From contig CM044962.1 in NCBI GenBank assembly GCA_024516035.1, forward strand, positions 6,857,659 to 6,921,658: a DNA stretch of 64,000 bases, written 5' to 3'. The translations under genes were made by a program, and so were the position numbers. The notes under the pieces were generated by a model that was not told the origin of the DNA, made no database searches, and was given only the letters and a program-made list of their open reading frames with translations. Position 1 is the first letter of the stretch. Every line of letters starts with the position of its first letter. Shown here in pieces: positions 1 to 29,548 of the stretch. This stretch comes from Bactericera cockerelli. Taxonomy: Eukaryota; Arthropoda; Insecta; Hemiptera; Triozidae.

Positions 1-2175
1 ACCGAGAGAGCATGAGAATAGTACTAATACACTGGGAGCATGAGATATAATCCTAGAGCATGTAGATTGAAGATATCCTGAGTAGAGCATGAGATTATAA
101 TACCTGAAGGCATGAGATTAGTTCCTCGTATGTAATAATACTGGAGTCATGTGAGAAGTTTTCTTATTAGATAATACTGAGAGAGCATGAGATATAATAA
201 TACCTGAGGATGATTCGTAAGAATATATATGATACCTGGAGAGAGATTTTGAATAGAAATACCAACATGGATTTCCTGAGAGAGCATGAGTATTTCTATA
301 GAAATAACTGAAAGCATGAGATAATAATATATACCTGAGAGAGCATGAGATAGATATAATAAGAGAAATAATTAATTACCTAAGAGTAGTATCCTGGGAG
401 GAGATATAATTACTGAGAGAGCATGAGATATATATTAATCTATGGATGAGATATAATAAACTGAGAGAGCATGAATATAATAATACCTGAGAGAGCATGA
501 GATATTTCTGGAGCTAGATAATACCTGAGAGAGCATGAGATATAATAATACCTGAGAGAGCATGAGATAGTATCTGAGCTAGATAAATACCTGAGAGAGC
601 ATATTGAGAGGTTTTCCTGAGAGATAGATAAATAAACCTGAGAGAGCATGAGATATATAATTTCTGGAGAAACATAGAATAATAATACTGAGAGAGCATG
701 AGATATAATAATACCTGAAGAGCATGAGATATATAGAGTAGATATAAACTGAGAGAGATGGATATAATAATACTGAGAGAGCATGAGATAGTTCCTGGGA
801 TAGATATATAATACCTGAGAGAGCATGAGATATTTCTGACATGAGATAATCCTGAGAGAGCATGGATATATTCCTCGTGAGTAATTATACTGAGAGAGCA
901 TGAGATATAATAATACTGAGAGAGCATGAGATATAATAATACCTGAGAGAGCATGAGATAGGTATAAATATACCTGAGAGAGCATGAGATATAATAATAC
1001 TGAGAAGCATGAGATATATAATACCTGAGAGAGCATGAGATATATTCTGAGAGAGCATGAGTAGATAATACTGAGAGGCATGAGATATCTATATAATACC
1101 TGAGAGAGCATGAGATATAATAATACCTGAGAGAGCATGAGATATAATAATACCTGGAGAGCATGAGATATATAATACCTGAGAGAGCATGAGAATAATA
1201 ATACCTGAGAGAGCATGAGATATAATAATACCTGAGAAGATGAGTTTTTGAGAATAGATAATAATAAACCTGAGAGAGCATGAGATATTATAGATAATAC
1301 CTGAGAGAGCATGAGATATAATAATACCTGAGAGAGCATGAGATATAATAATACCTGAGAGAGCATGAGATATATAATTACCTGAGAGAGCATGAGATAT
1401 AATAATACCTGAGAGAGCATGAGATATAATAATACCTGAGAGAGCATGAGATTTAATAATACCTGAGAGAGCATGAGATATAATAATACCTGAGAGAGCA
1501 TGAGATAGTAATATACCTGAGAGCATGAGATATAATAATACCTGAGAGAGCATGAGATATAATAATACCTGAGAGAGCATGAGATATTAGATAATAATAC
1601 CTGAGAGAGCATGAGATATAATAATACCTGAGAGAGCATGAGATATAATAATACCTGAAGAGCATGAGATATAATAATACCTGAGAGAGCATGAGATATA
1701 ATAATACCTGAGAGAGCATGAGATATTCTATAATAATACCTGAGGAGCATGAGATATAATAATACCTGAGAGAGCATGAGATATAATACTGTGAGAGCAT
1801 AGATATAATAATACCTGAGAGAGCATGAGATATAATAATACCTGAGAGAGCATGAGATATAATAATACCTGAGAGAGCATGAGATATAATAATACCTGAG
1901 AGAGCATGAGAAATAATAATACCTGAGAGAGCATGAGATATAATAATACCTGAGAGAGCATGAGATAATAATAATACCTGAGAGAGCATGAGATATAATA
2001 ATACCTGAGAGAGCATGAGATATGAGATAATAATAATACCTGAGAGAGCATGAGATATAATAATACCTGAGAGAGCATGAGAAATAATAATACCTGAGAG
2101 AGCATGAGATATAATAATACCTGAGAGAGCATGAGATATAATATTACCTGAGAGAGCATGAGATAATAATAATAC
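1..2175 (-). repeat. 27-bp minisatellite built from the 3' end and splice donor of the adjacent TTC28-like exon
   Basis: About 75-80 tandem units (length divided by 27). On the minus strand each unit reads TATCTCATGCTCTCTCAG followed by GTATTATTA. The first 18 bases are the last 18 bases of the exon at 2176-2348, and the GTATT that follows is its 5' splice site. Units next to the exon (about 1290-2175) are nearly uniform; towards position 1 they become degenerate with many indels. Unit length is nine codons and the unit has no stop in the exon frame. It looks like an expansion across the exon-intron junction. Indels at the far end may be real decay or read error. Confidence 0.93.
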
Positions 2176-2348
2176 CTGAGAGAGCATGAGATAGTTCTCG
2201 TAGTAGGGCACGGCCTGCGAGAACTCTGCGCGTGAGCTGAGGCAGTTCCCCAGGTTGAGCAGGGCACAGGCCTCCCCCGCCGTGTCCTTGAGCTCGCGAG
2301 CTATGTTGAGGTGAGCGCGGTAGTGCAGCAGCGCCATGTCATGCGCCC
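2176..2348 (-). CDS. TTC28: TTC28-like gene, coding exon 9 in this window (TPR repeats)
   Basis: 173 bp exon with acceptor TATTCCAG and donor GTATTATT. After completing a split glycine codon it encodes a TPR segment beginning GAHDMALLHYRAHLN and ending QAVPYYENYLMLSQ. This matches the TTC28 region that follows the block ending AVAYQALG in vertebrates. Phase fits the exon at 13331-13436. The exon is GC-rich against AT-rich flanks. Its donor is the first of dozens of near-identical donors in the adjoining array, so the true 3' limit is uncertain by multiples of about 27 bp. TTC28 is a very large TPR protein with a C-terminal CHAT-like region, linked in mammals to Aurora B and the midbody. The rest of the gene lies left of the window. 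Confidence 0.88.
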
Positions 2349-2375
2349 CTGGAATATTCAATAAATAATAATAAC

Positions 2376-2618
2376 TTCTGACTACAACATCACTCAGAAG
2401 GAAGCAGAAAAACGCTTAAAATATAAAGATCTCCAAGTAGAAATACAAAAACTGTGGAGCATGAAAACAACTGTAAATTCCAGTAGTGATTGGAGGCACA
2501 GGACTGATCTCGCACAAAACCTGCGAGGCAGTCAAAGAACTCCCAGGAACCCACAACTTGTTGGCATTGCAGAAGGCTGTTGTGTTGAGCACCGCCCAAA
2601 TAGTGCGGAAAGTACTGT
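2376..2618 (+). pseudogene. LINE C-terminal tail fragment, frameshifted
   Basis: Encodes KEAEKRLKYKDLQVEIQKLW, then after a frame change near 2475 a segment beginning IPVVIGGTGLISHKTCEAV and ending STAQIVRKVL. This is the conserved tail that follows the reverse transcriptase of many arthropod non-LTR retrotransposons. It is 5' truncated, frameshifted and lies in a TTC28-like intron. A related tail lies at 14215-14535. Confidence 0.7.
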
Positions 2619-2751
2619 AAGAACAGCATTAAATAATAACAATAGAAGAGAAGTACCTCAGGTGCACGGTGTGCACCCGGTACTTCCCAGAATATAACAC
2701 CATAGCAGTAATAGAGAAGCCATGTGAAGAAGAGCCAAATAATAATAATAA

Positions 2752-2953
2752 TAATATCGCCTTATTTATACTGCCCGATAAGGATTATTAAAGTCCCATT
2801 GTTCCAGCAGTAGGCCCAAGACATATTATTGTGTGGTAAAAATCCCAAAACGGGAGGACAACTTGTCATGCTCCGGCTGGGTTTCGAACCCACGACCTCT
2901 GGAACCTGTGGATTCACAGAGTGCCGCCTTTACCACTGAGCTACCGGGACAGA
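2752..2953 (-). mobile_element. tRNA-derived SINE, family A
   Basis: Read on the minus strand: tRNA-like head with A box (GTAGCTCAGTGG) and B box (GGGTTTCGAAACC-like), then a body that includes ACAAGTTGTCCTCCC and ends in TAAGGCGATATTATTATTATT. Other copies are at 21504-21708 and 27511-27716, with a diverged one at 47228-47402. The shared body and ATT-type tail identify a SINE rather than a functional tRNA gene. Confidence 0.8.
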
Positions 2954-3304
2954 CGATAAATGAGTGCCCGCAGAACCATAAAATCTTGATAAAAATTACT
3001 TTCTGTGTGGTGCCTGGGGAAAGATTAAGATCTCTCTCTTTCCTCTATCTCACTCACTCACTAGGCCCCGACATACCAAGTACAGAACCCAACAAAAATC
3101 CGACCCCACCGGGATTCAAATCCAGGTCACCTGCTCAATCCGACTTGTGGTTCTCGAGTTTTACGAGGACACACATACACACACAACCATCATCGCAGTA
3201 AATTTCAAAATCCCGAGCAAAATCAATCATAGTGGATATTGATAATGTAGCAAACTGGCCTATATTTCGAGAACGGTTTGTCAGAATATGGCAACATACA
3301 CACA
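2954..3304. other. Intron sequence with a degraded tRNA-SINE-like stretch
   Basis: No exon seen. Around 3060-3130 there is a B-box-like GGGATTCAAATCC on the minus strand, suggesting an eroded SINE. The rest is unremarkable. Confidence 0.4.
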
Positions 3305-3354
3305 CACGGAGACTCACCCAGGGCTTGATAAGCCTCGGCTAGGTTCCCATGCGA

Positions 3355-3418
<64 letters not shown>

Positions 3419-3420
3419 CC
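3305..3420 (-). repeat. Detached copy of an exon 3' end plus donor, followed by a (CA)n tract
   Basis: 3318-3353 repeats the last 36 bases of the type found in the exon at 13331-13436, with two or three substitutions, followed on the minus strand by donor GTGAGTCTCCG and TG repeats. A (CA)n microsatellite fills 3359-3418. It is the outlying member of the copies at 13145-13252, separated from them by the 9.7 kb interval 3421-13099. Confidence 0.85.
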
Positions 3421-3752
3421 TCACGCAGCAATACTTAGCCGAACCATTTTCGCGTTGCGACTTAGCCGAACTTAAGAAAAGTTTGTCCGATTTGAATAAG
3501 GTTTATATCAATTGCTAGCAATTTTAATTTAAGAGATACACACTTTTCGGTTTTTTTTACAATTCTCAACCATTTCGAAAATAATTGAAAAATTCTAACG
3601 TTCTGCTAATTCCCGAGTGCGAAGCGACCAGTGCCGGTCTCTAAAATTTCCTCATTCAGCAATACTTAGCCGAACCATTTTCGCGTTTGATACTTAGCAG
3701 AACACGCAAATGAAAAAATAGTACTTAACCGAACATTAACGATTTTTGAGCC

Positions 3753-3960
3753 AGCGTTGAAGGCACCGGTTCTTGTAGGATCACCGAAGTTGAGCAACGT
3801 ACATCTTCGTGATGCTGGTATTCCGGCCCAACAAAGGCTGGGTGAGGTTTATGTGGATATCGGTTTTTTTTTGTTTCCTGTGAAAAGAGGGTAAAACCCC
3901 CGTCGTCATATGACCATGCAGTTAAAAGTGGGGTTTAACGTCGCTTTTAAAAAAATAAAT
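3753..3960 (+). mobile_element. 5S rRNA-derived SINE (SINE3 type)
   Basis: Head GGATCACCGAAGTTGAGCAA corresponds to the internal promoter region of 5S rRNA. It is followed by a body with CGGCCCAACAAAGGCTGGGT and a tail ending GTTTAACGTCGCTTTT. Other members are at 45762-45972 (minus strand) and 63632-63790, with body-only fragments elsewhere. Confidence 0.78.
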
Positions 3961-4560
3961 AATTGAAAAGTATATTATTGTCTTAACATAGCTTTGCTCG
4001 GGCAGGAAAATGAAATGATTAAATCAAGGCATTATCTACTTAATGGAACGAAACTTTACGTGTGATAAGTTTGGTCAGATGAGTCAGGTCCTACTATTAC
4101 TTCCTAAATTTTCTAATATAATTATAATAGGAATGAAACTTATAAGTTCTCAGGAAATTATTATACACAACTCTTGGTAAAACAAAATAATAATCATCGA
4201 AATAATTTGAAGATAAAAAACACTGCCAATTATGGACACAATACTTCCTCGTGATTATTTCACATTATATACACGTAGGAAATTTTAATCAAAATCCATT
4301 GAGTAGTTTCCGAGATTTGCGCGTTACAAGGAATATTTTTAATAGACCGACAGACGGACACAAAACCAAAATTGCTCAGAGCAAAAAAATGTTTTTTTTT
4401 TTTTTACAGAAACGAACACAATACTAATATTTCTAATATTAGAAATATTAGTTTCTAATATTAGAAATTTCTCGGAAGTAATACACTGTCAATAAATTAT
4501 TAACACAATACTTCCTCGTGATTGGTTTACATTGTATACACGTGGCAATTTTGAGATTTT
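3961..4560. repeat. Fragments of a dispersed repeat (ACACAATACTTCCTCGTGAT family)
   Basis: Motifs GACACAATACTTCCTCGTGA (4233), a segment reading TTTCCGAGATTTGCGCGTTA, and the self-complementary TTCTAATATTAGAA with CTCGGAAGTA near 4425-4480. The same order of motifs recurs at 5336-5816, 7086-7120, 43790-43825 and 56055-56745. No coding capacity was seen, and the class is not identified. Confidence 0.55.
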
Positions 4561-4564
4561 ATAC

Positions 4565-4857
4565 TTAAGCTCAGTGGTTAAGCACTCGCTTCCTATGCGG
4601 AAGGTCCCGGATCCGAACCCCCGCGCCGACAAAAATTTGTATTCAAAATTTGGTTACAGTTGTTTGTAGGGAATACCTTTCGGTGCGCTCGTGTTGACTC
4701 AGCACCTAAATGGTAAGTATTGTGTCACTTCTCGCCCATCAGAGTGGAGGCATACTACGGGATGGGCAGGCTACAACACAGACCACAAGCTTCTACAGTA
4801 GCCCCTGTTTATAGCTACGAAATAAAAAAGGTTGTTAAACACTCATCTTTAAAAAAT
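4565..4857 (+). mobile_element. tRNA-derived SINE, family C
   Basis: Head AGCTCAGTGGTTAAGCACTC then B-box-like GGATCCGAACC, body with GTGTCACTTCTCGCCCATCA, A-rich tail. Copies at 12143-12412 (plus) and 16986-17334 (minus) share head, body and tail. Confidence 0.8.
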
Positions 4858-4881
4858 AAAATAAAACTCCATTGTATCTCT

Positions 4882-5085
4882 TGTACGGTGCACTGGTAGT
4901 CAAGTGGTTAAAGCGCTAGTCTGGTGATCTAGGTAGTGTAGGGATCCGTTGGTTCGAATCCCACCCAGTGCATGAATTTTCCTCATTTATTTGAGTTTGT
5001 AACCACAAAATAATAAGACTCTGAGGGTTAAGGTGGTAGAAAATGCTTTGAGTATCAACCTCGCCTGGTGGTTTATTATATCTAT
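4882..5085 (+). mobile_element. tRNA-derived SINE, family B
   Basis: Head GTGCACTGGTAGTCAAGTGG with B box GGTTCGAATCC, then body with AATAAGACTCTGAGGGTTAA and GGTGGTAGAAAATGCTTTGA. Copies are at 43826-44010 (minus), and degraded ones lie inside both 2.7 kb elements (53083-53280 and 58117-58300). Confidence 0.8.
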
Positions 5086-5089
5086 TACT

Positions 5090-5335
5090 AGCGGGCTGTC
5101 GCCCGCTTTGCGGGCCGAAGCATGGCCCGCTAGAAGCAAAAAATCCTTTTTCGCCAATGGCAGGTGTTGTAGTGGGAATTTCGAAAAATTCTGTCTTATT
5201 GCACATCTAGACTATAAGACAAAGCTACCTCCCAAATTTCAGCTTCCTAGGACTTACCAGTTCGGAGAAACAGTGATGAATCAGTGAGTGAGTGAGTCAG
5301 TCAGTGAGTGAAACTCTCTTATATAAGTATAGATA
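5090..5335 (+). repeat. Dispersed repeat beginning ACTAGCGGGCTGTCGCCCGC
   Basis: Nearly the same sequence recurs at 39988-40198: GGGCTGTCGCCCGCTTTGCG, then TGTTGTAGTGGGAATTTCG, then TCAGCTTCCTAGGACTTA, ending in a CAGTCAGTGA-rich stretch. The start folds on itself (GCGGGC/GCCCGC). Probably the 3' end of a dispersed element; the class is not identified. Confidence 0.55.
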
Positions 5336-5816
5336 TCTTACCTTCCAATATAGAGTGTTATTATATCTAAAACCGCTTAACCGATTTTCTTCAAATTTTA
5401 TATGTTATATATTATGGTAGAATACCGTTTTTCCTACAAACCCAACTCTACAAAAAATTGTGTATCGGCAAGTCATAGACGTTATTTTTGCACTTTTTTG
5501 TAAAAAAAATTGGATTTCCTAAATATCAAAGCTTATGATTTAGCTATAAATGCACAATGAGAACGCTAACTCCCAGCATATACAATATACATACATAATT
5601 TCGTGACAATTGGGTGTATTGTTCAAGAGATATAAGCGTTTAAGTAAAAATATAGTGGTCAGGCACATGGTCTGTATCACCAACAAGTGATAGTGCGAAG
5701 TTAATGAATTTAAAATGGGACCACCTACAATACGTCTCCTATACCTATATGTGTAAAAAATTTCGTCAAAATCTCGAAAGGAATAAGAAGTTGTAAAGTC
5801 GGCAAACTGTACAATA
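5336..5816. repeat. Dispersed repeat (CTTCCTCGTGAT family), interrupted by a foldback element
   Basis: Contains ACCGATTTTCTTCAAATTT, then TGTATCGGCAAGTC, AGATATAAGCGTTTAAGTAA and AAATGGGACCA, in the same order as 56140-56500. The copy is cut at 5817 by the MITE at 5819-6704. Confidence 0.6.
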
Positions 5817-5818
5817 TA

Positions 5819-6704
5819 CAGGGTCTTCATAAAGTCTCACCCAGGCCTAGGTTTCTCGAAAACGACTCAGAATATCAAAAAACGCAAAAACCCGTATTCC
5901 TTTATATTTAGGGGGATTGATTTTCAGCCAAAAAAAATTTGCCTACACGGCCCCAGTCAGGCTGGGCATGGACCAACTTTAAAATCTTAAATAGAATGGT
6001 ATGTCTTGTGGCATATTGTTTTAAAGGTCTTATTAAGAAAAGTTCATTACAACAAATTTAAGTGAGCTACAACTTACCGTTCTTGAGATACAGGGTCGGA
6101 CGTCCTGCGTAATATCCATATATTTTGACCTATAACTCGTTAACCGTAAATTATGGAGAAAATTTTTCATGGTAATAATAACTCCTTATGGCAAGAACTT
6201 TCGAACAAGTTAAAACTTGATTTGTTTTTTCGTTAAATTTTTTTCGACTGTTCGTCCGGCTGGCTGACGAAACCGACCAGAAACTAACATCAACAGAGTA
6301 TGTCGAGTTATAACTTGTTAGAAAGGTCTTGTCATAAGGAGTTATTATTACCATGAAAAATTTTCTCCATAATTTACGGTTAACGAGTTATAGGTCAAAA
6401 TATATGGATATTACGCAGGACGTCCGACCCTGTATCTCAAGAACGGTAAGTCGTAGCACACTGAAATTTATCGTAATAAACTTCTCTCAATAAGACCTTT
6501 AAAACAATATGCCACAAAACATACCATTCTATTTAAGATTTTAAAGTTGGTCCATGCCCAGCCTGACTGGGGCCGTGTAGGCAAATTTTTTTTGGCTGAA
6601 AATCAATCCCCCTAAATATAAAGGAATACGGGTTTTTGCGTTTTTTGATATTCTGAGTCGTTTTCGAGAAACCTAGTCCTGGGTGAGACTTTATGAAGAC
6701 CCTG
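5819..6704. mobile_element. Foldback MITE, 886 bp, with TA target duplication
   Basis: Almost the whole element is an inverted repeat. The left end CAGGGTCTTCATAAAGTCTC mirrors the right end, and the pairing continues inward for about 400 bases per arm around a short spacer near 6200-6300. TA flanks both ends (5817-5818 and 6705-6706), suggesting Tc1/mariner-type mobilisation in trans. No open frame of transposase length. Confidence 0.85.
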
Positions 6705-6706
6705 TA

Positions 6707-7187
6707 TATAATTACCTCCATTCTCCCTTTGTTTTTATTTCTAACGGTCTGAATTTAGTGAAACACAACCTTTTTTTATTTATATGAGTTGCATTTGTAC
6801 TTTGCCTTTGGAGCGTGGTAGGTATCCCCTTTTATAAGAAGGCCATTAAATACAAGAGATCTGCACTTTTAAACCTAAACAAAACTTGATCCTTTATTAT
6901 GTGTTAACAACTATGACCTCCCCACAGACCCTCCACAGAAGAAGGGAAAATACTGCTATATACCTATACATGAATATTAGTCATTTGGTTGTGAGTTCGA
7001 GATTGTTGAATGCTATAATAATTCATAAAGCAATGGGCAATGTTGGTATGATCAGATCCATTTAATAGAAAGAGAATAAAATGCACTGCCAATTATGGAC
7101 ACAATACTTCCTCGTGAATGGCATTCAAATTTTTCTACTTTTATTATCGCTAGAATCAGAGATTTTTTTACTGAATCACTTTACTTT
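6707..7187. other. Noncoding sequence
   Basis: No gene seen. A short CACTGCCAATTATGGACACA fragment of the dispersed CTTCCTCGTGAT repeat lies at 7083-7117. Confidence 0.5.
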
Positions 7188-10100
7188 AAAATACCCAAAA
7201 TTACATACTTGATGAAAATTGAAGGCAAAATGTCAAATATGATAAAATACCCCTTCAACTTTCGCTGAGTATGCAAACAAGTGGTTCCAAATGCTTGGTA
7301 AGGCTTCATTCACCATTGCCTATCTTCAGTTCAAATTTGAAAGAAATCTTTAAAGAGAGGTTATATGTTGACATGTTTTGTTTAAGATTTGACTCGATCT
7401 GAGATTTTGGATGTTTTCAGAAATCGAATGAACTTATCTTTCGAACCGTACGTCCGATTTGAATGAACTAAAGTGCTATCGATAGATCTAGTGGATTGTA
7501 AGATAGGCTGTTCTCGTTCATTTTCTGTCATTTTACATAAAGGGTTACTTTTTAACGGAAAACACTTTTGACGCACAACTGGGTTAAGAATGGCCTGGGT
7601 TATCAAAAACTATGCATGCGATTTCAAAAAAATCAACGATATTAGGCAGATCTTGCGAAATATTATTCCAAATTGGCATAAAAACATCAACAGATTATTT
7701 CATTCCATCCATTTCTTATCAAAAATGTCTATTTTGGCCTACCTCGAACTTTCAAAGGTGTGAAAACCTGGCAAAAATGCAAGCATCAAAAATCTGTGTT
7801 AGTCCATGCTTAATCGTTAGTTGAGAGCTATTGAATTCGACGTTTGTTTTTCAAAAACGCCTTCATATCATCATGTTATGCAATCATTTTGAAGGAGCCT
7901 TTGTGGGTTTCCTGTTGGCGGTACGGAAATTTTTTGGGAACCAAAAACGTATATTTTTGACTACTTCTCTCTAAAATTTAGTTTAAAATACCTAAAATTG
8001 CATACTTAATGAGAATTGAATGGAAAATGCAAATATGATAAATTACCCCTTCAACTTTCGCTGAATATGCAAACAAGTGGTTCCAAATGCTTGTTAAGGC
8101 TTTATTCACCACTGGCTATCTTCAGTTCAAATTTGAAAAAAATCCTTAAAGAAGAGGTTATATATGTTGACATGTTTGTTTAAGATTTGACTCGATCTGA
8201 GATTTTGGATGTTTTCAGAAATCAAATAAACTTATCTTTCGAACCGTACGTCCGATTTGAATGAACTAAAGTGTTATCGATAGATCTAGTGGATTGTAAG
8301 ATAGGCTGTTCTCGTTCATTTTCTGTCATTTTACATAAAGGGTTACTTTTTAACGGAAAACACTTTTGACGCACAACTGGGTTAAGAATGGCCTGGGTTA
8401 TCAAAAAGTATGCATGCGATTTCAAAAAAATTAACGATATTAGGCAGATCTTGCGAAACATTATCCCAAATTGGCATAAAAATATCAACATATTATTTCA
8501 TTCTGTCCATTTCTTATCAAAAATGTCTATTTTGGCCTACCTCGAACTTTCAAAGGTGTGAAAACCTGGCAAAAATGCAAGCATCAAATCTGTGTTAGTC
8601 CATGCTTAATAGTTAGTTGAGAGCTATTGAAATCAACGTTTGTTTTTCAAAAACGCCTTCATATTATCATGTTATGCAATCATTTTGAAGGAGCCTTTGT
8701 GGCTTTCCTGTTGGCGGTATGGAAATTTTTTGGGAACCAAAAACGTATATTTTTGACTATTTCTTTCTAAAATTTAGTTTAAAATACCTAAAATTGCATA
8801 CTTGATGAGCATTGAAGGCAAAATGTCAAATATGGTAAAATACCCCTTCAACTTTCGCTGAGTATGCAAACAAATGGTTCCAAATGCTTGGTAAGGCTTT
8901 ATTCACCACTGCCTATCTTCAGTTCAAATTTGAAAGAAATCCTTAAAAAAGAGGTTATATGTCGACATGTTTTGCTTAAGATTTGACTCGTTCTGAGATT
9001 TTGGATGTTTTTAGAAATCGAATGAACTTATCTTTCGAACCGTACGTCCGATTTGAATGAAACTAAAGTGCTATCGATAGATCTAGTGGATTGTAAGATA
9101 GGCTGTTCTCGTTCATTTTCTGTCATTTTACATAAAGGGTTACTTTTTAACGGAAAACACTTTTGACGCACAACTGGGTTAAGAATGGCCTGGGTTATCA
9201 AAAAGTATGCATGCGATTTCAAAAAAATTAACGATATTAGGCAGATCTTGCGAAACATTATCCCAAATTGGCATAAAAATATCAACATATTATTTCATTC
9301 TGTCCATTTCTTATCAAAAATGTCTATTTTGGCCTACCTCGAACTTTCAAAGGTGTGAAAACCTGGCAAAAATGCAAGCATCAAATCTGTGTTAGTCCAT
9401 GCTTAATAGTTAGTTGAGAGCTATTGAAATCAACGTTTGTTTTTCAAAAACGCCTTCATATTATCATGTTATGCAATCATTTTGAAGGAGGCTTTGTGGC
9501 TTTCCTGTTGGCGGTACGGAAATTTTTTGGGAACCAAAAACGTATATTTTTGACTATTTCTTTCTAAAATTTAGTTTAAAATACCTAAAATTGCATACTT
9601 GATATTGAAGGCAAAATGTCAAATATTTTAGAATACCCCTTCAACTTTCGCTGAGTATGCAAACAAATGGTTCCAAATGCTTGGTAAGGCTTTATTCACC
9701 ACTGCCTATCTTCAGTTCAAATTTGAAAGAAATCCTTAAAAAAGAGTTTATATGTCGACATGTTTTGCTTAAGATTTGACTCGTTCTGAGATTTGGGATG
9801 TTTTAGAAATCGAATGAACTTATCTTTCGAACCGTACGTCCAATTTGAATGAATTAAAGTGCTATCGATAGATCTAGTGGATTGTAAGATAAGCTGTTCT
9901 CGTTCATTTTCTGTCATTTTACATAAAGGGTTACTTTTTAACGGAAAACCTTTTTGACGCACAACTGGGTTAAGAATGGCCTGGGTTATCAAAAAGTATG
10001 CATGCGATTTTAAAAAAATAAACGAAACTAGGCAGATCTTGCGAAACGTTATCCCAAATTGGCATAAAAACATCAACATTTATTTTTTTGAAATCGCATG

Positions 10101-11275: not shown

Positions 11276-11311
11276 TTTTCTACGTACATTTTTAAATTTC
11301 ATTTTTCTCAG

Positions 11312-11792: not shown

Positions 11793-12142
11793 ACTATGTA
11801 CGAGTACTTGGTACCGCTCTTGGGCATAATATTATAATATGGTAGTCACTTTTAACTTGCAGCAAAAGAATCATACATGTGAAAAAAGATTTATCATTCG
11901 TCTGGCAGGTTTCAAATTATTCAAACTAAATAGTTGAAAGCGACGTTAAAACCCCAATTAAAAAAAAAAAAATGTGGATATGTGGAATCGCTCCTGTATT
12001 CTACATATCCAGTCTACATATCCAGGTATTCCGCTTGGGCTGTGTTTCATCTAAACAAATTTCTCTTCCATTCATTCCACTTTTCAGGTAAAAGAGGTAG
12101 CTAAATTATATTAAGAACAATCAATGCAAAAATTCAAGCTCA

Positions 12143-16984: not shown

Positions 16985-16985
<1 letters not shown>

Positions 16986-17028
<43 letters not shown>

Positions 17029-18719: not shown

Positions 18720-20714
18720 CAGTGGCGGCTCCTGACTTCAAGACTAGGTGAAGACAAATTATACCCAGAAGTATTGAAAAAATAAAATTTATTAATTTAT
18801 CAGATCTTAGTTCTTATGGTCTCATAAACACAGCCCATTGTAAGTTATGGCTGTTTCCCTGCAGAGCATGGTTTTCTCTCATACCAGTTTTGCATCATAG
18901 AAGTTTTTATAGGTACTTTTTTTGGAGAACACTTGGTACTTAATAAATAACCAAGGCCAGCAGAACAATTTGTCAACACTTGAGCTGGTACACAGCCATT
19001 CATTTTTCATAAGCCATTCAGGCTTGAACTGTATGGCTGTGGGGCAGGCATTTGCTTTACTTTTTTAGTGGTGGTTATAGTAATTGGAGAAATTGGATAT
19101 CCAGTAATCATAATAATTATCTTTCTTATCCTCATTACTTCTTAATCTGAATGGGGTTACTTTTAATGTTTGAACCCCATGATTTTGTGGGAATCTCATT
19201 GTTTCTTTGAAATATTGTTATTAATTATTCATCTTAATAAAAAATATTTATTCATCTTAATAAAAAATATTAACTAAAAGTTGGTAAAAAGGAATTAAAA
19301 TACAAATATTAGGATTATACCTCAGTAGATAGGTAGGTACAACATTTTAAAGAGGGGTTAGAACTGGGAAGGAAAGAAAGTTAGTTGAAGACTAAAAATT
19401 ACAATCCAAAACTGGAAGAAAATTCACCACCAGATTACAAAATAAATCTAAGAAAACATTCTTACTACAAATATAAAATCAGCTTAAATTTGTGTTACCA
19501 TTGATGTTTAAATGACTATTTATGAAAAACACAGATATTGCCTTATAATTTTAAGTAATTCACTGGAAGCTGTGTGCTTAGCTACCTGCAACCTGCATAA
19601 TTATAATGTTATTTCTGACACTAAAAGAAGTACATAGCTACTTCATATTCAACTTATTATGAAAAGCACAGGTCAGATCAGGTAGGAATAATGTTTCTAT
19701 CCTGTATCAAATTAATTAAAAGTCACTTGGTTACCGTTGAAAAGATTTGAAAATAATCTAATAAAATTTAAAAAGTGCACAACAAGTTTTGTTTACATTC
19801 TAAAGATAAAAGATACAATGTTGCCAAGTTAATTTCATAGCTAAATTTCTACAAACTTCAAGAGCTATATTTTAAATTTAAAGAAATCCCTCAAATCATG
19901 TAAGACGTATTTATTTATTTTAAAACATAATACTACACCGCCTGAACAGAATTTTCTCTTGAGAATTTCATTTCAACACGTCTAATTTCATGATTTTTTT
20001 TTAAAGTGGTTCCTAATCAGGATCTTAAACAGGACCACCATTGTCCCTATTTAAAAACTTCTTGGAACAACTAGATACCAGATTATCTTATTTGGCTCAA
20101 TTTCGGTACCTACATTAAATAATTATATCCGAGATTTGACTTCAATCGAGATGTCCTTTTTAAGACTATAGTTGACAAGATACATAAATAGTTAAAATTT
20201 ATTGGTATCGGCTATCGTTTAGGAACTATGTACAAAACTAGAACCCAAAAAATGAGAAATAATATACAAAATTCCTGACACAAAATCCTGCTTTCCTAAC
20301 GCCTACGTTATTATAATTATTATTATTATTTATTTTTTTTAATATTACAAGATTGTGCTAGATATGGGAGGCGCTAAATCATTGACTGGTTTCCTAGGTC
20401 TGGCATAATGCTACTGGCAACAATGTTAATATCAAAAACACATGACATCTCACATGGTATGTGGCTTCGTGACATTTCGTATGAGGTCGTGTAGATAATG
20501 TAAACTGAATACAACTGAAGACTGTCCTCAGTAGCATATTACATAGATATAGTTTTTGCCTAATATTTCATGATACCTACTTGGAAATACTCAACTCTGA
20601 TTGGTTGATTCAAGGACAACTGAAGACAATTTCGAATTGTCTTCACATTTGGTGTTCTCCTTGGAAAGTAACATGAAATGTTAAGCAGCATTGATCTATT
20701 TTACACAAAGCTTA

Positions 20715-20753
<39 letters not shown>

Positions 20754-20862
20754 CTTTGAGTTGGATCAATTGTGCCATGTTCAAGGGATTATGATTAGTG
20801 TTTTCACTGTTCAAAATTAGGTGAAAATGTCTTCAGTGTCTTCACCCGACGAGCCGCCACTG
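18720..20862. mobile_element. Non-autonomous hAT-like transposon, 2143 bp, in satellite DNA
   Basis: Terminal inverted repeats CAGTGGCGGCTCCT and (other end, minus strand) CAGTGGCGGCTCGT match at 13 of 14. An exact 8 bp target duplication ATTGATAC lies at 18712-18719 and 20863-20870. Subterminal GGTGAAGACA occurs at both ends. The interior is AT-rich with a poly-T run near 20720 and no transposase-length frame. TIR start and 8 bp duplication fit the hAT superfamily. Confidence 0.9.
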
Positions 20863-20939
20863 ATTGATACCTAAATCACGGTGGTATATAATTATTCCGT
20901 GTCCGTGAGATAGGTATTGATACCTAAATCACGGTGGAT

Positions 20940-21110
20940 GAGAGGATTATATGGACGCTCAGATCCAATGTCTAGGCTCCTTTCATGTGCATTGATTCTT
21001 TTTGGTTTTAGCGTCCTGACTTGAGGTAAACAGAACGGGGGTATTACCCTCCATTCGCTGGGAATCGTACCAGCTACCCACATTAACCTCACCCTGCCTG
21101 GGTAAACCAG
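20940..21110 (-). mobile_element. 5S-SINE-related body fragment
   Basis: Contains TTCGCTGGGAATCGTACCAG, CTACCCACATTAACCTCACC and CCTGCCTGGGTAAACC, the reverse-strand body motifs of the 5S-derived SINE family (compare 28400-28500 and 45830-45890). The 5S head is not recognised. Confidence 0.5.
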
Positions 21111-21503
21111 ATGAAAGGTATTAAGTTTTGTTTTAATAATTTGAATCTTTTAGAATATATTCTATGTACTCCATGTATTGTAACTAAAACTTGATCGAAT
21201 AAAACTTGTGTAGTAATAGAAAGTTTAGTAATAGAAAGGGTTGGGTGGAAGAGATTGCCATAGGCAATAACCCCGCCCTTTAGTTAGGACATATGTTTTC
21301 AAATATTTTCTATTCTTTCTCATTTTTATTGTATATATTGTTTTTTTTTTTAATTTTTTTCACTGTTAAAATTATTATTTATATGTACATAATGACTAAT
21401 TCAAATCAGGACGTAAAACCAAATAGAATCAACTGGTCACATTAGATCTAAATAAAGGTTCGTGTGATAAAATTGAACATGGATGGATTCGAAATCAGAG
21501 AGA
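21111..21503. other. Intron sequence with a retrotransposon 3'-end-like stretch
   Basis: GGTTGGGTGGAAGAGATTGC near 21238 recurs at 28500; poly-T at 21335. No coding exon seen. Confidence 0.45.
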
Positions 21504-21708
21504 TAATAATATCGCCTTATTTATACTGCCCGATAAGGACTATTAAAGTCCCAGTATTCCAGCAGTAAGCCCAAGACTCATTATTATGTGGTAAAAATCT
21601 CAAATGGGAGGATAACTTGTCATGTCCCGGCTGTGTTTCGAACCCGCGACCTCTGGAATCTCTGGATTCACAGAGTGCCGCCTTTACCACGGAGCTACCG
21701 GGATAGAA
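21504..21708 (-). mobile_element. tRNA-derived SINE, family A
   Basis: Same head, body and ATT tail as 2752-2953, orientation minus. The B box reads GGGTTCGAAACAC, slightly altered. Confidence 0.82.
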
Positions 21709-21994
21709 TAAAAACTTGTTCAGTAATAAAACCAAAGGAAGATCCTCTATGAAACTTCCCCTCACCAGTTTTTACCTTGTTTTTATTTTATTAATTTTTT
21801 TTTTTTTTTTTACACTTTATTTTATATACAATACATACAACAATAAATTATTAACAAAGATAAAAAAAAATTAACAATAGGTATTTACAAAATAAGATAT
21901 AGAAGAAAAAAAAAATATTTAAATTTTAAATATACAATGTATTGTAATCCGGGGCGAAGTTAATGCCTTAGGCATTCTCTGCCACTTAACTTAC

Positions 21995-22203
21995 CTTGTT
22001 GCCGAGCCGGCGCGCCAGTCTCAGGTGCTGCGTGTGGCAGTCGACGGCGCTCTCGAACTCGCCCATGGCCAGATAGACCACGCCCACGTTGCCTATCTCG
22101 CGGGCCTCCTGCAGGCGGTCGCCCATCTGCTTCACCAGCTGGACGCACTGCTTGTGCGAGGCCAGGGCGTTCGGGTAGTCGCCTATCGCGGTGTAAACAT
22201 GCC
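21995..22203 (-). CDS. TTC28: TTC28-like gene, coding exon 5 in this window (TPR repeats)
   Basis: 209 bp exon, acceptor ATTGTTCCCAG, donor GTAAGTTAAG. Frame after the split glycine: HVYTAIGDYPNALASHKQCV, then a segment with RLQEAREIGNVGVVYLAMGE and TQHLRLARRLGNK. Nearly identical in layout to vertebrate TTC28 (HVYTAIGDYPNALASHKQCV...). Ends in phase 0 before the exon at 16702-16865. Its first bases and acceptor are duplicated twice upstream at 22440-22565. Confidence 0.94.
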
Positions 22204-22439: not shown

Positions 22440-22565
22440 TATAGCAAACATAGAAGGATTATCGCGGTGTAAACATGCCCTGGGAACAATATTATTTCTC
22501 ATGTAATACATGGTAACAATCAGGTAGTCGCCTATCGCGGTGTAAACATGCCCTGGGAACAACAA
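22440..22565 (-). repeat. Two copies of a 3' splice site and exon start
   Basis: ATCGCGGTGTAAACATGCCC then TGGGAACAA occurs at 22460-22490 and again, with GGTAGTCGCCT before it, at 22523-22563. Both repeat the plus-strand text of 22180-22215, the first 25-35 bases of the exon at 21995-22203 plus its acceptor. They offer alternative acceptors without the rest of the exon. Confidence 0.85.
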
Positions 22566-22967
22566 TATTATTATTATTATTAAACATGTTGGATCAGGTT
22601 TTATTTACAAATTTACATTTTTTTACAATAATAATTAGAGAGAGACACAAATTGTTCATATATTTTAAATAAATACAATCGCGGCTGTCTACCTTTGGTA
22701 GATTGCTAATACACAGCATACTCATCAATCCAGAAGATATTAGCTTTCTCAATGTTGGGGGTTTTTCTAATTTTTTTTTCTTTCATTTATTCTTTAACTT
22801 CTTCTTTCCAATTTCAGTTTCAATCATACTCCATGTATGTGGTGATGGAGGATATATATATGGAGTTTATTAAACATGTTGGATCAAGTTTTATTTATAA
22901 ATTTACATTTTTTTACAATAATAATCAATACTAATAACACCTACTGTATGATGACTAAAACTATAAT
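22566..22967. other. Intron with a duplicated ACATGTTGGATCAGGTTTTA stretch
   Basis: TTAAACATGTTGGATCARGT followed by TTTATTTAYAAATTTACATT occurs near 22580 and 22868, about 288 bp apart. No coding exon seen. Confidence 0.5.
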
Positions 22968-24007: not shown

Positions 24008-25440
24008 GCCACACAAACCTCACCCAGCCTCGGTAGGGTCGGAAATTTGTCTACCGTCCACTCACCCAGCCTGGGTAGGGTCGGAAATGTCTCTACCACC
24101 TCCACTCACCCAGCCTGGGTAGGGTCGGAAATGTCTCTACCGTCCAATCACCCAGCCTCGGTAGGGTCGGGAAATGTCTCTACCGTCCACTCACCCAGCC
24201 TCGGTACGGTCGGAAATATCTCTACCACCTCCACTCACCCAGCCTGGGTAGGGTCGGAAATGTCTCTACCACCTCCACTCACCCAGCCTTGGGTAGGGTC
24301 GGAAATGTCTCTACCGTCCACTCACCCAGCCTGGGTAGGGTCGGAGGAAATGTCTCTACCGTCCACTCACCCAGCCTCGGTAGGGTCGGGAAATGTCTCT
24401 ACCGTCCACTCACCCAGCCTGGGTAGGGTCGGAGGAAATGTCTCTACCGTCCACTCACCCAGCCTCGGTAGGGTCGGAGGAAATGTCTCTACCGTCCACT
24501 CACCCGGCCTCGGTAGGGTCGGAGGAAATGTCTCTACCGTCCACTCACCCAGCTTCGGTAGGGTCGGAGGAAATGTCTCTACCGTCCACTCACCCAGCCT
24601 CGGTAGGGTCGGAGGAAATGTCTCTACCGTCCACTCACCCAGCTTCGGTAGGGTCGGGAACTGTCTCTACCGTCCACTCACCCAGCCTCGGTAGGGTCGG
24701 GAAATGTCTCTACCGTCCACTCACCTAGACTCGTGAGAGCGCTGGCCGCAGCCTGAGTGTCCTTGCACTTTATGGCGTGCACTAGCTGCCACACAAACCT
24801 CACCCAGCCTCGGTAGGGTCAGAATTGTCTCTACCGTCCACTCACCCAGCCTCGGTAGGGTCGGAGGAAATTGTCTCTACCGTCCACTCACCCAGCCTGG
24901 GTAGGGTCGGAGGAAATGTCTCTACCGTCCACTCACCCAGCCTTGGTAGGGTCGGGAAATGTCTATACCGTTCACTCACCCAGCCTCGGTAGGATCGGGA
25001 AATATCTCTACCGTCCACTCACCTAGACTCGTGAGAGCGCTGGCCGCAGCCTGAGTGTCCTTGCACTTCATGGCGTGCACTAGCTGCCACACAAACCTCA
25101 CCCAGCCTCGGTAGGTTCGGGAAATGTCTCTACCGTCCACTCACCCAGCCTCGGTAGGGTCGGAGGAAATGTCTCTACCGTCCACTCACCTAGACTCGTG
25201 GAAGCCGCTGGTCGCCGCCCTGAGTGTCCTTGCACTTCATGGCGTGCACTAGCTGCCACACAAACCTCACCCAGCCCAGGTAGGGTCGGAAATGTCTCTA
25301 CCGTCCACTCACCCAGCCTCGGTAGGGTCGGGAAATGTCTCTACCGTTCACTCACCCAGCCTCGGTAGGGTCGGGAAATGTCTCTACCGTCCACTCACCC
25401 AGCCTCGGTAGGGTCGGAGGAAATGTCTCTACCGTCCACT
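24008..25440 (-). repeat. Minisatellite from a 5S-SINE body, interleaved with exon fragments
   Basis: About 30 units of 40-47 bp: CTCACCCAGCCTCGGTAGGG, TCGG(GA/AGG)AAATGTCTC, TACCGTCCA. The ACACAAACCTCACCCAGCCT core matches the reverse strand of the 5S-SINE body (compare 3850-3880). Three inserts (24725-24788, 25023-25086, 25190-25254) are the last ~64 bases of the TTC28-like exon at 27217-27421 with its donor. On the minus strand each unit also carries GGGTGAGTGG, a donor-like sequence. Confidence 0.9.
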
Positions 25441-27216
25441 CACCTAGACTCGTGAGAGACTCGTGACTCACCTAGACTCGTGAGAAACTCGTGACTCACC
25501 TAGACTCGTGACTCACCTAGACTCGTGACACACCTAGACTCGTGACTCACCTAGACTCGTAACTCACCTAGACTCGTGAATCACCTAGACTCGTGAGAGA
25601 CTCGTGACTCACCTAGACTCGTGACTCACCTAGACTCGTAACTCACCTAGACTCGTGAATCACCTAGACTCGTGAGAGACTCGTAACTCACCTAGACTCG
25701 TGAGAGACTCGTGACTCACCTAGACTCGTGACACACCTGAGACTCGTAGACTCTACAGACTCGTGACTCACCTAGACTCGTGACACACCTAGATTCGTGA
25801 GAGACTCGTGACTCACCTAGACTCGTGAGAGACTCGTGACTCACCTAGACTCGTGACTCACCTAGACTCGTGACTCACCTAGACTCGTGACTCAACTAGA
25901 CTCGTGACTCACCTAGACTCGTGACTCACCTAGACTCGTGAGAGACTCGTGACTCACCTAGACTCGTGAATCACCTAGACTCGTGAGAGACTCGTGACTC
26001 ACCTAGACTCGTGACTCACCTAGACTCGTAACTCACCTAGACTCGTAACTCACCTAGACTCGTAACTCACCTAGACTCGTGACTCACCTAGACTCGTAAC
26101 TCACCTAGACTCGTAACTCACCTAGACTCGTGAGAGACTCGTGACTCACCTAGACTCGTGAGAGACTCGTGACTCACCTAGACTCGTGACTCACCTAGAC
26201 TCGTAACTCACCTAGACTCGTAACTCACCTAGACTCGTGAATCACCTAGACTCGTGAGAGACTCGTGACTCACCTAGACTCGTGACTCACCTAGACTCGT
26301 GACACACCTAGATTCGTGAGAAACTCGTGACTCACCTAGACTCGTGAGAGACTCGTGACTCACCTAGACTCGTGACTCAACTAGACTCGTGACTCACCTA
26401 GACTCGTGACTCACCTAGACTCGTGAGAGACTCGTGACTCACCTAGACTCGTGAATCACCTAGACTCGTGAGAGACTCGTGAATCACCTAGACTCGTAAC
26501 TCACCTAGACTCGTAACTCACCTAGACTCGTAACTCACCTAGACTCGTGACTCACCTAGACTCGTAACTCACCTAGACTCGTAACTCACCTAGACTCGTA
26601 ACTCACCTAGACTCGTGACTCACCTAGACTCGTAACTCACCTAGACTCGTAACTCACCTAGACTCGTGAATCACCTAGACTCGTGAGAGACTCGTGACTC
26701 ACCTAGACTCGTGACTCACCTAGACTCGTGACACACCTAGATTCGTGAGAAACTCGTGACTCACCTAGACTCGTGAGAGACTCGTGACTCACCTAGACTC
26801 GTGACTCAACTAGACTCGTGACTCACCTAGACTCGTGACTCACCTAGACTCGTGAGAGACTCGTGACTCACCTAGACTCGTGAATCACCTAGACTCGTGA
26901 GAGACTCGTGAATCACCTAGACTCGTGACTCACCTAGACTCGTGAGAGACTCGTGACTCACCTAGACTCGTGACTCACCTAGACTCGTGACTCACCTAGA
27001 CTCGTGACTCACCTAGACTCGTGACTCACCTAGACTCGTGACTCACCTAGACTCGTGACTCACCTAGACTCGTGACTCACCTAGACTCGTAACTCACCTA
27101 GACTCGTGACTCACCTAGACTCGTGACTCACCTAGACTCGTGACTCATCTAGACTCGTGACTCACCTAGACTCGTGACTCACCTAGACTCGTAACTCACC
27201 TAGACTCGTAACTCAC
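25441..27216 (-). repeat. 17-bp minisatellite built from an exon end and GTGAGT donor, about 100 copies
   Basis: The minus-strand unit TCACGAGTCTAGGTGAG equals the last 12 bases of the exon at 27217-27421 (TCACGAGTCTAG) plus its splice donor GTGAG. Variants have GTGAGT, GTTACG or an extra TCTCACGAGTC. Higher-order blocks of several hundred bases recur (for example 25990-26350 and 26480-26840). Because 17 is not a multiple of 3 and the unit holds TAG, reading through would soon terminate. Confidence 0.94.
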
Positions 27217-27421
27217 CTAGACTCGTGAGAGCGCTGGCCGCTGCCTGCGTGTCCTTGCACTTCATGGCGAGCACCAGCTGATAGCGGTGCGACTGGAGCG
27301 CCTCCTCGAGGCTGGCCTTGGAGAAGTAGGCGGAGCCTAGGTTCCCGTGGGCGCGGCACTCCCCGCCCACATCTCCCAGGGACTTGGCTACGGCGAGGTC
27401 CTGCTGCATGTAGTTGATAGC
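27217..27421 (-). CDS. TTC28: TTC28-like gene, coding exon 4 in this window (TPR repeats)
   Basis: 205 bp exon, acceptor TGTCGCCCCCAG, donor GTGAGTTACG. Frame: AINYMQQDLAVAKSLGDVGG, ECRAHGNLGSAYFSKASLEE, then HRYQLVLAMKCKDTQAAASA and LTSLG. Vertebrate TTC28 has YMQQDLDVAKTLGDQTGECRAHGNLGSAF in this place. Ends one base into a glycine codon completed by the exon at 21995-22203. The donor used could be this one or any of about 100 copies in the following 1.8 kb. Confidence 0.94.
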
Positions 27422-27716: not shown

Positions 27717-28680
27717 TTGGATTATGGAATGGCCTTGCCTACGAATGCCAAGAAGGAGAATAAAAATCTTTATCCATGAAAACATTAATTTAATGATTTG
27801 AACATAAAAGCTGTAGCCAAGCTGGCTACAACAACAACAACAGCGACCTTAGCGTCCATTTCCGTATAGGGGTTAATTAAGCAAAGTGGCCTTTATTTAA
27901 GCTCTACTATACGTGGTTTCTTTTTGTATATGACCTTTTGATACACCCTGTTATGTAATGTTGCTTATCTTAGTAAAAAAAAATTCTAGTTTCTATCTCT
28001 CTGGTTATTTTTGTTTTTACCATTGCTAGTATTTCCCTCTGGTTAATCCAAACCAAAACACCAGGTTCGTTAATGGACAAAATCGAGAACTTAAGTCATG
28101 ACTTAGAACCGATGCTAAGTACGCAAATCGAGACTGAGCTCCACTATATTACAAAAAGGTCTATTAATCATTAGTTCACTTAAGGCGAAAATAATAGACA
28201 AATTCAATAACTCAAGTCATTGCTAAGAGTCTGTTTTCCCTATCTTACAAAGTACGCAATCCGTGACAGTGCACCTGTGTAATATTCTTCTTCTTCTTTT
28301 TTTATTCTGTATTATCCCGATTTTGCAGGGTCAACGTTGTTCAACTTCATGGTTGAGGTCGGTTGGTTTTGGCACATTTTCACGGCTGGATGCCCTTCCT
28401 AACGCCAACGATTCTATTTGATTTAACGTCCTGGATTAGGACGGGGGTTTTACCCTCCATTTGCTGGGAATCGTACCAGCTAATACCCACAGTAACAAAG
28501 GATTGGGTGGAAGAGATTGCCACAGGCAATAACCCCGCCCTCTAGGTAGGACATTGTTATTTTCTTTTTTACTTATTTATTTTGTCATTTGTTTGTTTGT
28601 TTTTTTTTTTTTTTTTCTTAATTTTATACTGTTACCATTATACTTTGTCCTCCTAATAAAGCTTAAAAAAAAAAAAATAC
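27717..28680. other. Intron with SINE/LINE remnants
   Basis: 28300-28560 holds 5S-SINE-related body text (GGCTGGATGCCCTTCCTAAC, TTTGCTGGGAATCGTACCAG) and a GGTGGAAGAGATTGCCACAG stretch seen also at 21240. Poly-T at 28598. No exon seen. Confidence 0.5.
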
Positions 28681-28681
28681 C

Positions 28682-28999
28682 TCACCCAGCCTAGGTAGGC
28701 CCGGAAATATTACTAATAATAAATAAAAAAAATTAACCTCACCCATCCTAGGTAGGGCCGGAAATATTACTAATAATAATAAAAAAAATTAACCTCACCC
28801 AGCCTAGGTAGGGCCGGAAATACTACTAATAAAAATACCTTATCCAGAGAGTTGAGAGCCCAGTACGCGGAGGAGAGCGCGGAGAACACGCTGCCTCTCA
28901 GCTTGAGAGAGCAGGTGCCTATCTTGAGGGCGGCCTCTATCGTACCTCACCTAGCCTAGGTAGGGCCGGAAATATTACTAATAATAATAAAAAAAATAC
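28682..28999 (-). repeat. Short tandem repeat plus duplicated 3' part of the next exon
   Basis: Three units of about 58 bp (CCTCACCCAGCCTAGGTAGG, GCCGGAAATATTACTAATAA) precede 28839-28937, which copies the last 99 bases of the exon at 29000-29232 including its donor, with about five substitutions. A fourth unit then leads to the real exon. The fragment lacks an acceptor, so it is a donor-only partial exon. Confidence 0.88.
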
Positions 29000-29232
29000 C
29001 TTATCCAGAGAGTTAAGCGCCCAGTACGCGGAGGAGAGCGCGGAGAACACGCTGCCCCTCAGCTTGAGAGAGCAGGTGCCTATCTTGAGGGCGGCCTCCA
29101 GCACCTGCACGGCACACGAGTAGTTCCCCGACCCCGCCCCCAGCAGCTCCTGCCCCACCACGGAGATGAGGACGAACGGGCTCTTGTCCAGATTCATCGC
29201 TTCCAGCTGCTGGAAGGTGGGCTCCAGAGTGT
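29000..29232 (-). CDS. TTC28: TTC28-like gene, coding exon 3 in this window
   Basis: 233 bp exon, acceptor TTTATTTTTCCAG, donor GTATTTTTT. Encodes TLEPTFQQLEAMNLDKSPFV, then a segment with SVVGQELLGAGSGNYSCAV and EAALKIGTCSLKLRGSVFSA and LSSAYWALNSLDK. The GTCSLKLRGSVFSALSSAYW block is a hallmark of TTC28. It joins in phase to 29786-29933 (split codon) and 27217-27421. Its 3' 99 bases are copied at 28839-28937 and its 5' 71 bases at 29478-29548. Confidence 0.95.
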
Positions 29233-29477
29233 CTGGAAAAATAAATAATAAGGGAAAATCTTTACTATTTAATAATTTATTGTTTTAATAATTACGTACC
29301 TTTTAGTATAATATTGTAATGCTTGATTGAGTGGTCACTATAACACTATGTGTCATTCAATCTTGCAAGTAACACACTTCTCTTAGAAGCTCTTCAAAGC
29401 TTAGGAGAAGTACCTTTGTATTAATGTTTCTTTATAAAGAAAATAAATAAATAAACTATTATTATTATTATTATGTA

Positions 29478-29548
29478 GGAGATGAGAAGGAAAGGGCTCT
29501 TGTCCAGATTCATGGCTTCCAGCTGCTGGAATGTGGGCTCCAGAGTGT
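29478..29548 (-). repeat. Duplicated 5' part of a TTC28-like exon with acceptor
   Basis: Copies the first 71 bases of the exon at 29000-29232 with about five substitutions; AG and a weaker polypyrimidine tract are retained. There is no donor, so it is an acceptor-only partial exon about 245 bp upstream of the real one. Confidence 0.85.

Follow-up and report, generated by a model that had tools for sequence, protein, structure and literature searches.

Tandem duplications spanning exon edges in the introns of a TTC28 gene from a psyllid-like insect

Introduction

Minisatellite-like tandem duplications of exon/intron boundaries, named 'mirages', have been described in amphioxus, where they occur in Adh3 and in the globin genes BflGb6 and BflGb9, and where PGBD5 has also been compared (PMC3087553, PMC3902484). 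In the excerpts of these two papers the name is applied to lancelets only, splicing is described as undisturbed and length instability is reported. For amphioxus VCBP3, whole exons or parts of them, splice sites included, are also mentioned within introns, as data not shown (PMC2632668, excerpt). Excerpts of work on other animals describe variable internal tandem repeats at the exon–intron boundaries of human segmentally duplicated genes (PMC2812944), repair-mediated local duplication in vertebrates (PMC2671141), intron gain via tandem genomic duplication (PMC4974935), and intronic minisatellites in earthworm metallothionein, whose fourth-exon duplications are absent from the transcript (PMC12783039). 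The excerpt of a study of tandem repeats in Daphnia (PMC3152781) contains nothing on splice sites, and no insect or psyllid case was recognised in the titles and abstract openings of the literature matches listed.

The stretch of DNA analysed here (64,000 nt; the window) carries nine exons (E1–E9) of TTC28 from a psyllid-like insect on its minus strand, with repeats that closely parallel mirages as excerpted. In both, the splice junction falls inside the tandem unit, the copies occupy the intron next to the genuine exon, the two ends of exons are alike involved (five donors and three acceptors in TTC28), and many units retain AG/GT, as in the TTC28 E9, E4 and E6 arrays. Unit sizes are ~10–160 bp in mirages and 17–155 bp in TTC28. 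The host differs, lancelet in one case and insect-like in the other, and TTC28, known from one sequence, has eight affected junctions of a single gene within 31 kb and up to ~112 units. From their excerpts, the human boundary repeats share with TTC28 minisatellites at exon borders and duplicated splice sites, but concern recent paralogs in which new introns are possible, whereas no new intron was seen in TTC28. The vertebrate repair duplications likewise reproduce short stretches locally, exons and splice sites among them, although as single copies from break repair rather than arrays; duplication of this type could be the seeding step of the TTC28 arrays. Like the excerpted intron-gain cases, TTC28 shows tandem duplication within a gene, bearing on introns; unlike them, its duplications lie at existing junctions.

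Results

GT-AG borders are present at all nine TTC28 exons. Joining E2–E9 gives an uninterrupted open frame of 500 aa, which contains TPR domains and matches TTC28-named homologues. On the minus strand the exons lie at 30839–31093 (E1), 29786–29933 (E2), 29000–29232 (E3), 27217–27421 (E4), 21995–22203 (E5), 16702–16865 (E6), 13813–14074 (E7), 13331–13436 (E8) and 2176–2348 (E9). BLAST against the window found no junction copies of E1 or E7.

A unit holding both exon and intron sequence across the splice junction was found by BLAST and the local-duplication map at 8 of the 18 TTC28 junctions. Local copies span five of nine donors (E3, E4, E6, E8 and E9) and three of nine acceptors (E2, E3 and E5). 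In the exon-against-window BLAST, at most 25 matches were listed per exon, out of 72 for E4, 53 for E6 and 73 for E9. The units are mostly arranged head to tail and hold an exon end plus its donor or acceptor. The genuine exons are intact, with GT-AG borders and E2–E9 in one frame, and the copies sit in the adjoining introns.

The donor arrays, all on the minus strand, are the most extensive. The E9 array (1–2195, TRF) has a 27 bp unit of 18 exon nt and 9 intron nt, the last 18 nt of E9 forming the first unit. Approximately 85 units occupy 1–2192, ~49 of them in 890–2192, with 54 AGGT including the genuine donor. Indels and substitutions amount to 5.7 % and 0.8 % in 881–2192 and to 17.1 % and 6.6 % in the degenerate distal part (1–880), the copy number of which is therefore untrustworthy. 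The array continues past the start of the window. The E4 array (25457–27228, TRF) consists of ~112 units of 17 bp, each of 11 exon nt and 6 intron nt, with 85 AGGT and 71 AGGTRAGT, again including the genuine donor. Next to it, a 43-bp array of intron 4 (24019–25456, TRF) contains, at three places, the final 64 nt of E4 together with the donor. In the E6 array (15387–16707, TRF), 21-bp and 106-bp units are present, with eight copies carrying 76 exon nt, a 428-bp higher-order repeat and 36 AGGT, the genuine donor included. The E8 array (13100–13366; TRF, BLAST) is shorter; its ~72-bp unit holds 36 exon nt, the donor and a GT run, and is present in two local extra copies, with three GGGTGAG and no AGGT. 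A far copy of the E8 end and donor, also with 36 exon nt, lies 10 kb away in the same intron (3294–3353, minus strand; 93.3 % over 60 nt, BLAST), flanked by AC runs. An unstranded repeat-rich block (3421–13098), recognised from its sequence and local repeats, separates this copy from the E8 array and probably represents one or more mobile-element insertions.

These observations bear out an earlier report, made from the sequence alone, of arrays with a unit spanning the 5′ splice site at E9, E8, E6 and E4. The 'half-copies' that it placed on either side of E3 are real, but they are separate copies of the donor end and of the acceptor end. One copy, set head to tail, takes in the E3 end, donor and intron start (28792–28937, minus strand; 91.0 % over 155 columns, BLAST), in which the last 99 exon nt correspond to 28839–28937; a second, short donor copy at 28678–28745 carries 8 exon nt. 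The other is a copy of the E3 start and acceptor (29478–29566, minus strand; 91.0 % over 89 nt, BLAST), with 71 exon nt at 29478–29548.

Two further acceptors are duplicated, also on the minus strand. At E2 a 121-bp unit with 7 exon nt is present in two tandem copies (29927–30168; TRF, BLAST), the extra copy located by BLAST at 30044–30154. E5 has two extra acceptor copies (22460–22589, BLAST), at 22460–22496 and 22520–22589, with 20 and 33 exon nt. No TTC28 acceptor has more than two extra copies, and high-copy arrays holding exon sequence occur only at donors (E9, E6 and E4). Because the acceptors of E2, E3 and E5 are also duplicated, the feature common to the repeats is the exon edge and not the donor; the donor had been proposed as the shared position when the acceptor copies were mostly overlooked. 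Tolerance by itself would not lead one to expect long expansion solely at donors.

Discussion

The junction-spanning minisatellites of TTC28 are probably tolerated tandem duplications of exon edges, of the 'mirage' kind and unusually dense. Local tandem duplication, by slippage between short direct repeats or by break repair that copies nearby DNA, would copy a stretch overlapping an exon edge. A duplication entirely within a coding exon would be removed by selection, while one straddling the edge would do no harm to the original exon or to the splice site belonging to it, and the extra copy would become intron. Some copies may then expand as minisatellites, chiefly at donors and with short units. 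If splicing keeps to the exon-proximal site, the extra sites would be tolerated and decay, and the exon would retain the protein. Births of such duplications were probably raised locally in or near the TTC28 exons; this, like the mode of duplication and the tolerance through proximal-site choice, we infer. Units of the E9 and E4 arrays close to the exon are cleaner than distant ones, as expected from growth beside the exon. Candidate short direct repeats were noted by eye at some founder ends, for E6 (ACATG), E2 (AGT) and E9 (TAT), and none beyond ~1 nt was seen by eye at the E8 and E4 founders.

The TTC28 arrays look like a striking insect example of a repeat type known from lancelets, tolerated rather than useful. 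With the coding frame intact, a true donor is followed immediately by tens of donor-like sites, which makes the arrays a natural experiment on how splicing chooses the exon-proximal site among near-identical ones. They also bear on the origin and persistence of duplicated splice sites, which are possible raw material of intron change. So dense a case in an insect-like host points to a wider occurrence of such arrays, whose assembly is difficult and which may for that reason have escaped notice. A wider alternative, which we regard as possible but doubtful, is a genome-wide process of this lineage that favours exon borders, arose apart from that of the lancelet and expands donor copies into long arrays, the intronic copies being fossils of earlier exon sequence. 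Were this true, one could measure across thousands of genes how duplicated splice sites are born, grow and come to be tolerated. In a search for related loci, 14 stretches in a genome contig set and one in a viral contig set fitted a search pattern, and none of either set was confirmed.

That the exons simply lie at random in a region rich in tandem duplication is unlikely, although coverage alone fits it: 45 % of 1–31,200 sits in local duplications (at least 25 nt, 80 % identity, distance 10–4000), and 8 of the 18 junctions fall in duplicated DNA, no excess over the 8.14 that rotation of the exon map leads one to expect (P=0.59). This rotation, however, allows arrays to land across coding sequence. 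Founder units give a different result, as 8 of 11 hand-listed seeds cover a junction against 1.31 expected, and none of 200,000 simulations reached 8. Omitted from the seeds were four components in 3418–11792, one at 20712–21811, the microsatellites and six components beyond 31.2 kb, and the sample is one gene in one window chosen for being striking. With automatic grouping, a junction is included in 7 of 13 components within 1–31,200 and in none of 6 beyond; none of the 13 lies wholly inside a TTC28 exon. In a Sir2-family control with exon borders placed by eye, none of nine junctions was covered, but duplications make up only 5.5 % of that part, which leaves the comparison little power. Repeated, independent seeding at the exon edges of one gene is supported; the accompanying argument that random VNTR birth is hard to accept holds for founder units and fails for coverage.

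A donor- or splicing-linked mutational process, such as R-loops or transcription-linked breaks at 5′ splice sites, is quite unlikely to have made the arrays. It would fit the restriction of high-copy exon-bearing arrays to donors, with acceptors limited to two extra copies, and over the first 60 intron nt four of five array donors and two of four plain ones show positive GC skew, a figure that measures the array itself. With three of nine acceptors duplicated, a donor-only mechanism was rejected; of the donor-specific proposal in the preliminary description, what stands is that growth into long arrays was confined to copies of donors. Exon-side composition does not distinguish the two groups either: GC of the last 60 exon nt is 0.57–0.67 in the five array exons and 0.57–0.70 in the four plain ones, and skew is −0.24 to +0.35 and −0.47 to +0.02, respectively. 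E7 and E1 rank first and third of the nine in exon GC (0.691 and 0.655), yet have no copies. With ranges overlapping over nine exons, exon-side GC or GC skew was rejected as a cause, and the proposed role of R-loops or GC-rich exon ends finds no support.

It is improbable that the arrays are functional, their stocks of extra donors or alternative exon ends serving to control TTC28 splicing or to extend the protein by peptide repeats. Within 1.5 kb of the exon, 23 of 38 donor-like sites in E9 and 2 of 2 in E8 precede the first in-frame stop, as such a role would allow; none of 60 in E4 or of 23 in E6 does, the distal donors there coming after a stop. Conservation of the donor core does not exceed that of the remaining unit in E9 (43/340 against 208/1947 variable, P=0.30), and the core is more variable in E4 (70/444 against 122/1453, P=2e-5). 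Extra donors are thus not conserved in the two arrays examined, and selection keeping them there was rejected. Differences between exon and copies that are shared among copies are mostly silent (13 silent to 4 changing, and 7 to 1 in the two single E3 copies), which could favour function and also counts for the tolerance reading; private differences (7 to 8) look neutral by these counts, which exclude copies with <30 exon nt and use a 13-nt margin adopted after the data were seen. The suggestion that extra donors are tolerated gains support from the unconserved donor cores of E9 and E4 and from the stops preceding distal donors in E4 and E6.

Creation or inflation of the repeats by error-prone long reads or misassembly is likewise improbable and was rejected as the sole explanation, for although the E9 array is indel-dominated throughout and touches the window edge, and array copy numbers may be wrong in the assembly, read noise would hardly yield differing units at eight junctions, the higher-order repeat of E6, copies that carry their own differences from the exon, or an E8 copy lying 10 kb off.

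Further intronic repeats accompany the exon-edge copies. A 53-bp array (16873–18720, unstranded), broken by what by eye is a tRNA-like SINE, stops 16 nt before the E6 acceptor and contains no exon sequence. Intron 3 holds 56-bp repeats (28664–28837, minus strand; TRF, BLAST). The repeats of the locus were said to be unrelated in sequence, but this does not hold for all: a stretch is common to the intron 4 43-mer and the intron 3 56-mer, which are 82–90 % alike over 28–42 nt.

Structure and distribution of junction-spanning repeats in TTC28

The junction arrays of TTC28 are real, apparently tolerated, and a dense addition to a known class: the amphioxus 'mirages', minisatellite-like tandem duplications of exon/intron boundaries which have the same structure and occur at both exon ends (PMC3087553, PMC3902484). 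No insect or psyllid case of junction-spanning arrays was recognised among the literature matches listed; as evidence of absence this is weak.

Nine TTC28 exons (E1–E9) are located within the first 31 kb on the minus strand, from 31093 down to 2176, all nine with GT-AG borders. E2–E9 sum to 1500 nt and, when joined, form a single open frame with TPR repeats (Pfam). Several TTC28-named proteins are present among the 120 matches listed of 350 in a protein search. Within this list the first named match by E-value is a mite protein, a beetle protein shows 85 % identity across 53 % of the query, and Diaphorina citri, a psyllid, has the top local identity among named matches (92 % over 132 aa, 97 % over 94 aa). 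The host is presumably psyllid-like. When the D. citri TTC28 model (P0021) is set beside E2–E6, exon order differs and unrelated residues follow E3, as if the assembly or the gene model were broken there.

Tandem arrays at the TTC28 exon edges were confirmed with TRF. With queries made of every exon and 100 nt of flanking sequence, copies spanning the donor (5′ splice site) were found at E3, E4, E6, E8 and E9, and copies spanning the acceptor (3′ splice site) at E2 (7 exon nt), E3 and E5; E1 and E7 gave no junction-spanning copies. Self-alignment, run separately, recovered the identical 8 of 18 TTC28 junctions. It found 0 of 9 junctions duplicated in the Sir2-family gene to the right, a weak control because just 5.5 % of 31,201–64,000 is locally duplicated. 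The five donors of the preliminary description, which proposed donor-seeded arrays, were recovered; the acceptors of E2 and E5 had been missed. Long arrays have grown from donor copies only.

The E9 donor array has a 27-bp unit with 18 exon nt and comprises about 85 units, reaching the window edge, with the distal 880 nt degenerate. The E8 unit of about 72 bp consists of 36 exon nt, the donor and a GT run, in two local copies; a far copy lies at 3294–3353, with a repeat-rich block standing between. This block, at 3421–13098, carries direct repeats of ~0.8 kb together with a 39-bp array (11313–11792), and part of it, near 10,080, is inverted; it looks like nested mobile elements, presumably inserted. 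A long, foldback-like inverted repeat is also apparent by eye at 5820–6710, centred near 6,270. At the E6 donor, 21-bp and 106-bp units are arranged with a 428-bp higher-order repeat and eight copies with 76 exon nt. A 53-bp array adjoins the E6 acceptor (16873–18720, 20863–20937); a SINE-like stretch and an unrelated segment of ~2.1 kb interrupt it. The E4 donor array has about 112 units of 17 bp, beyond which a 43-bp array embeds three copies of the last 64 E4 nt plus donor. At E3, 99 exon nt plus donor are copied once head to tail, a further, shorter copy includes the donor with 8 exon nt, and on the opposite side a copy holds 71 exon nt plus acceptor; E5 has two acceptor copies, and at E2 the acceptor lies in a 121-bp duplication.

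Taken by twelfths of the array, the error in E9 rises from 0.06 beside the exon to 0.28 in the most distant part, and in E4 from 0.03 to about 0.11. Growth beside the exon would leave the near units cleaner; in E9, poor assembly could also account for the pattern.

Chance or excess at exon edges

Founders, the original duplicated units, were compared with units placed randomly in the gene, rejecting purely exonic placements and removing arrays and element blocks. Junctions are covered by 8 of 11 hand-listed founders against 1.31 expected, with at least 8 in 0 of 200,000 simulations. However, 45 % of the 1–31,200 region is duplicated DNA, and the 8 of 18 junctions within it compare with 8.14 expected when the exon map is rotated (P=0.59; P=0.63 once the element block is excluded). 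A junction is no likelier than other local positions to sit in duplicated DNA. The two nulls disagree and both matter; by the first, exon edges founded repeats unusually often in TTC28 here. Automatic grouping of local duplications placed a junction in 7 of 13 components within 1–31,200 and in 0 of 6 further right. None of the 13 lies wholly within a TTC28 exon, as purifying selection would have it.

Fate of the extra donors

Conservation of the donor core was assessed in the E9 and E4 arrays. In E9 the core varies like the rest of the unit (43/340 vs 208/1947, P=0.30). The E4 core varies more than the rest (70/444 vs 122/1453, P=2e-5), partly from a variant unit without the donor. Within 1.5 kb, donor-like sites preceding the first in-frame stop number 0 of 60 for E4, 0 of 23 for E6, 23 of 38 for E9 and 2 of 2 for E8. 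With the core no better kept in E9 and E4, and stops preceding the distal donors of E4 and E6, the earlier suggestion of tolerance is supported; from sequence, the extra donors are read as probably tolerated, with the exon-proximal site used.

History and origin of the copies

Silent-site counts covered copies holding 30 or more exon nt (E3, two; E4, three; E5, one; E6, eight; E8, three). Of the differences from the exon common to an exon's copies, 13 are silent and 4 changing; among distinct private differences the split is 7 silent to 8 changing. Common differences are mostly silent in copies of E3 (28839–28937, 29478–29548), E4 (24725–25255), E6 (15592–16629) and E8 (3318–3353, 13145–13252). 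All 4 changing ones lie at most 12 nt from a copy's broken end, and a 13-nt margin, chosen after the data were seen, leaves 12 : 0. For a neutral copy lineage and a constrained exon, 13 : 4 gives P=0.0055, or P=0.031 with a sixfold GC-to-AT bias. The simplest reading of these small numbers is that arrays grew shortly after they were seeded, with silent changes in the exon following later. Weak coding constraint may also act on the copies, since the silent : changing count for the two single copies of E3 is 7 : 1.

Donor-linked seeding through GC-rich exon ends or R-loops, as first proposed, finds little support because acceptors are also copied and exon-end GC and GC skew overlap between array and array-free donors. 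Over the first 60 nt of intron, G-skew is seen at 4 of 5 array donors vs 2 of 4 plain donors, but there the measurement is of the array itself. By eye, short direct repeats flank the founders at E6, E2 and E9; none is seen at E8, and at the unit ends of E4 they span about 1 nt at most. Seeding partly by slippage and partly by break repair would fit this.

Neighbouring sequences

A Gypsy-like element at 33224–38241 pairs a gag-like frame with a pol frame; the latter holds protease, reverse transcriptase, RNase H and integrase domains. The Sir2-family gene, SIRT7-like on our reading, carries its SIR2 domain in one exon (Pfam). A lysine-rich open frame at 46058–47152, in which no Pfam domain was found, is taken for its last exon; within this frame is a 105-bp tandem duplication of 2.2 copies (46674–46903).
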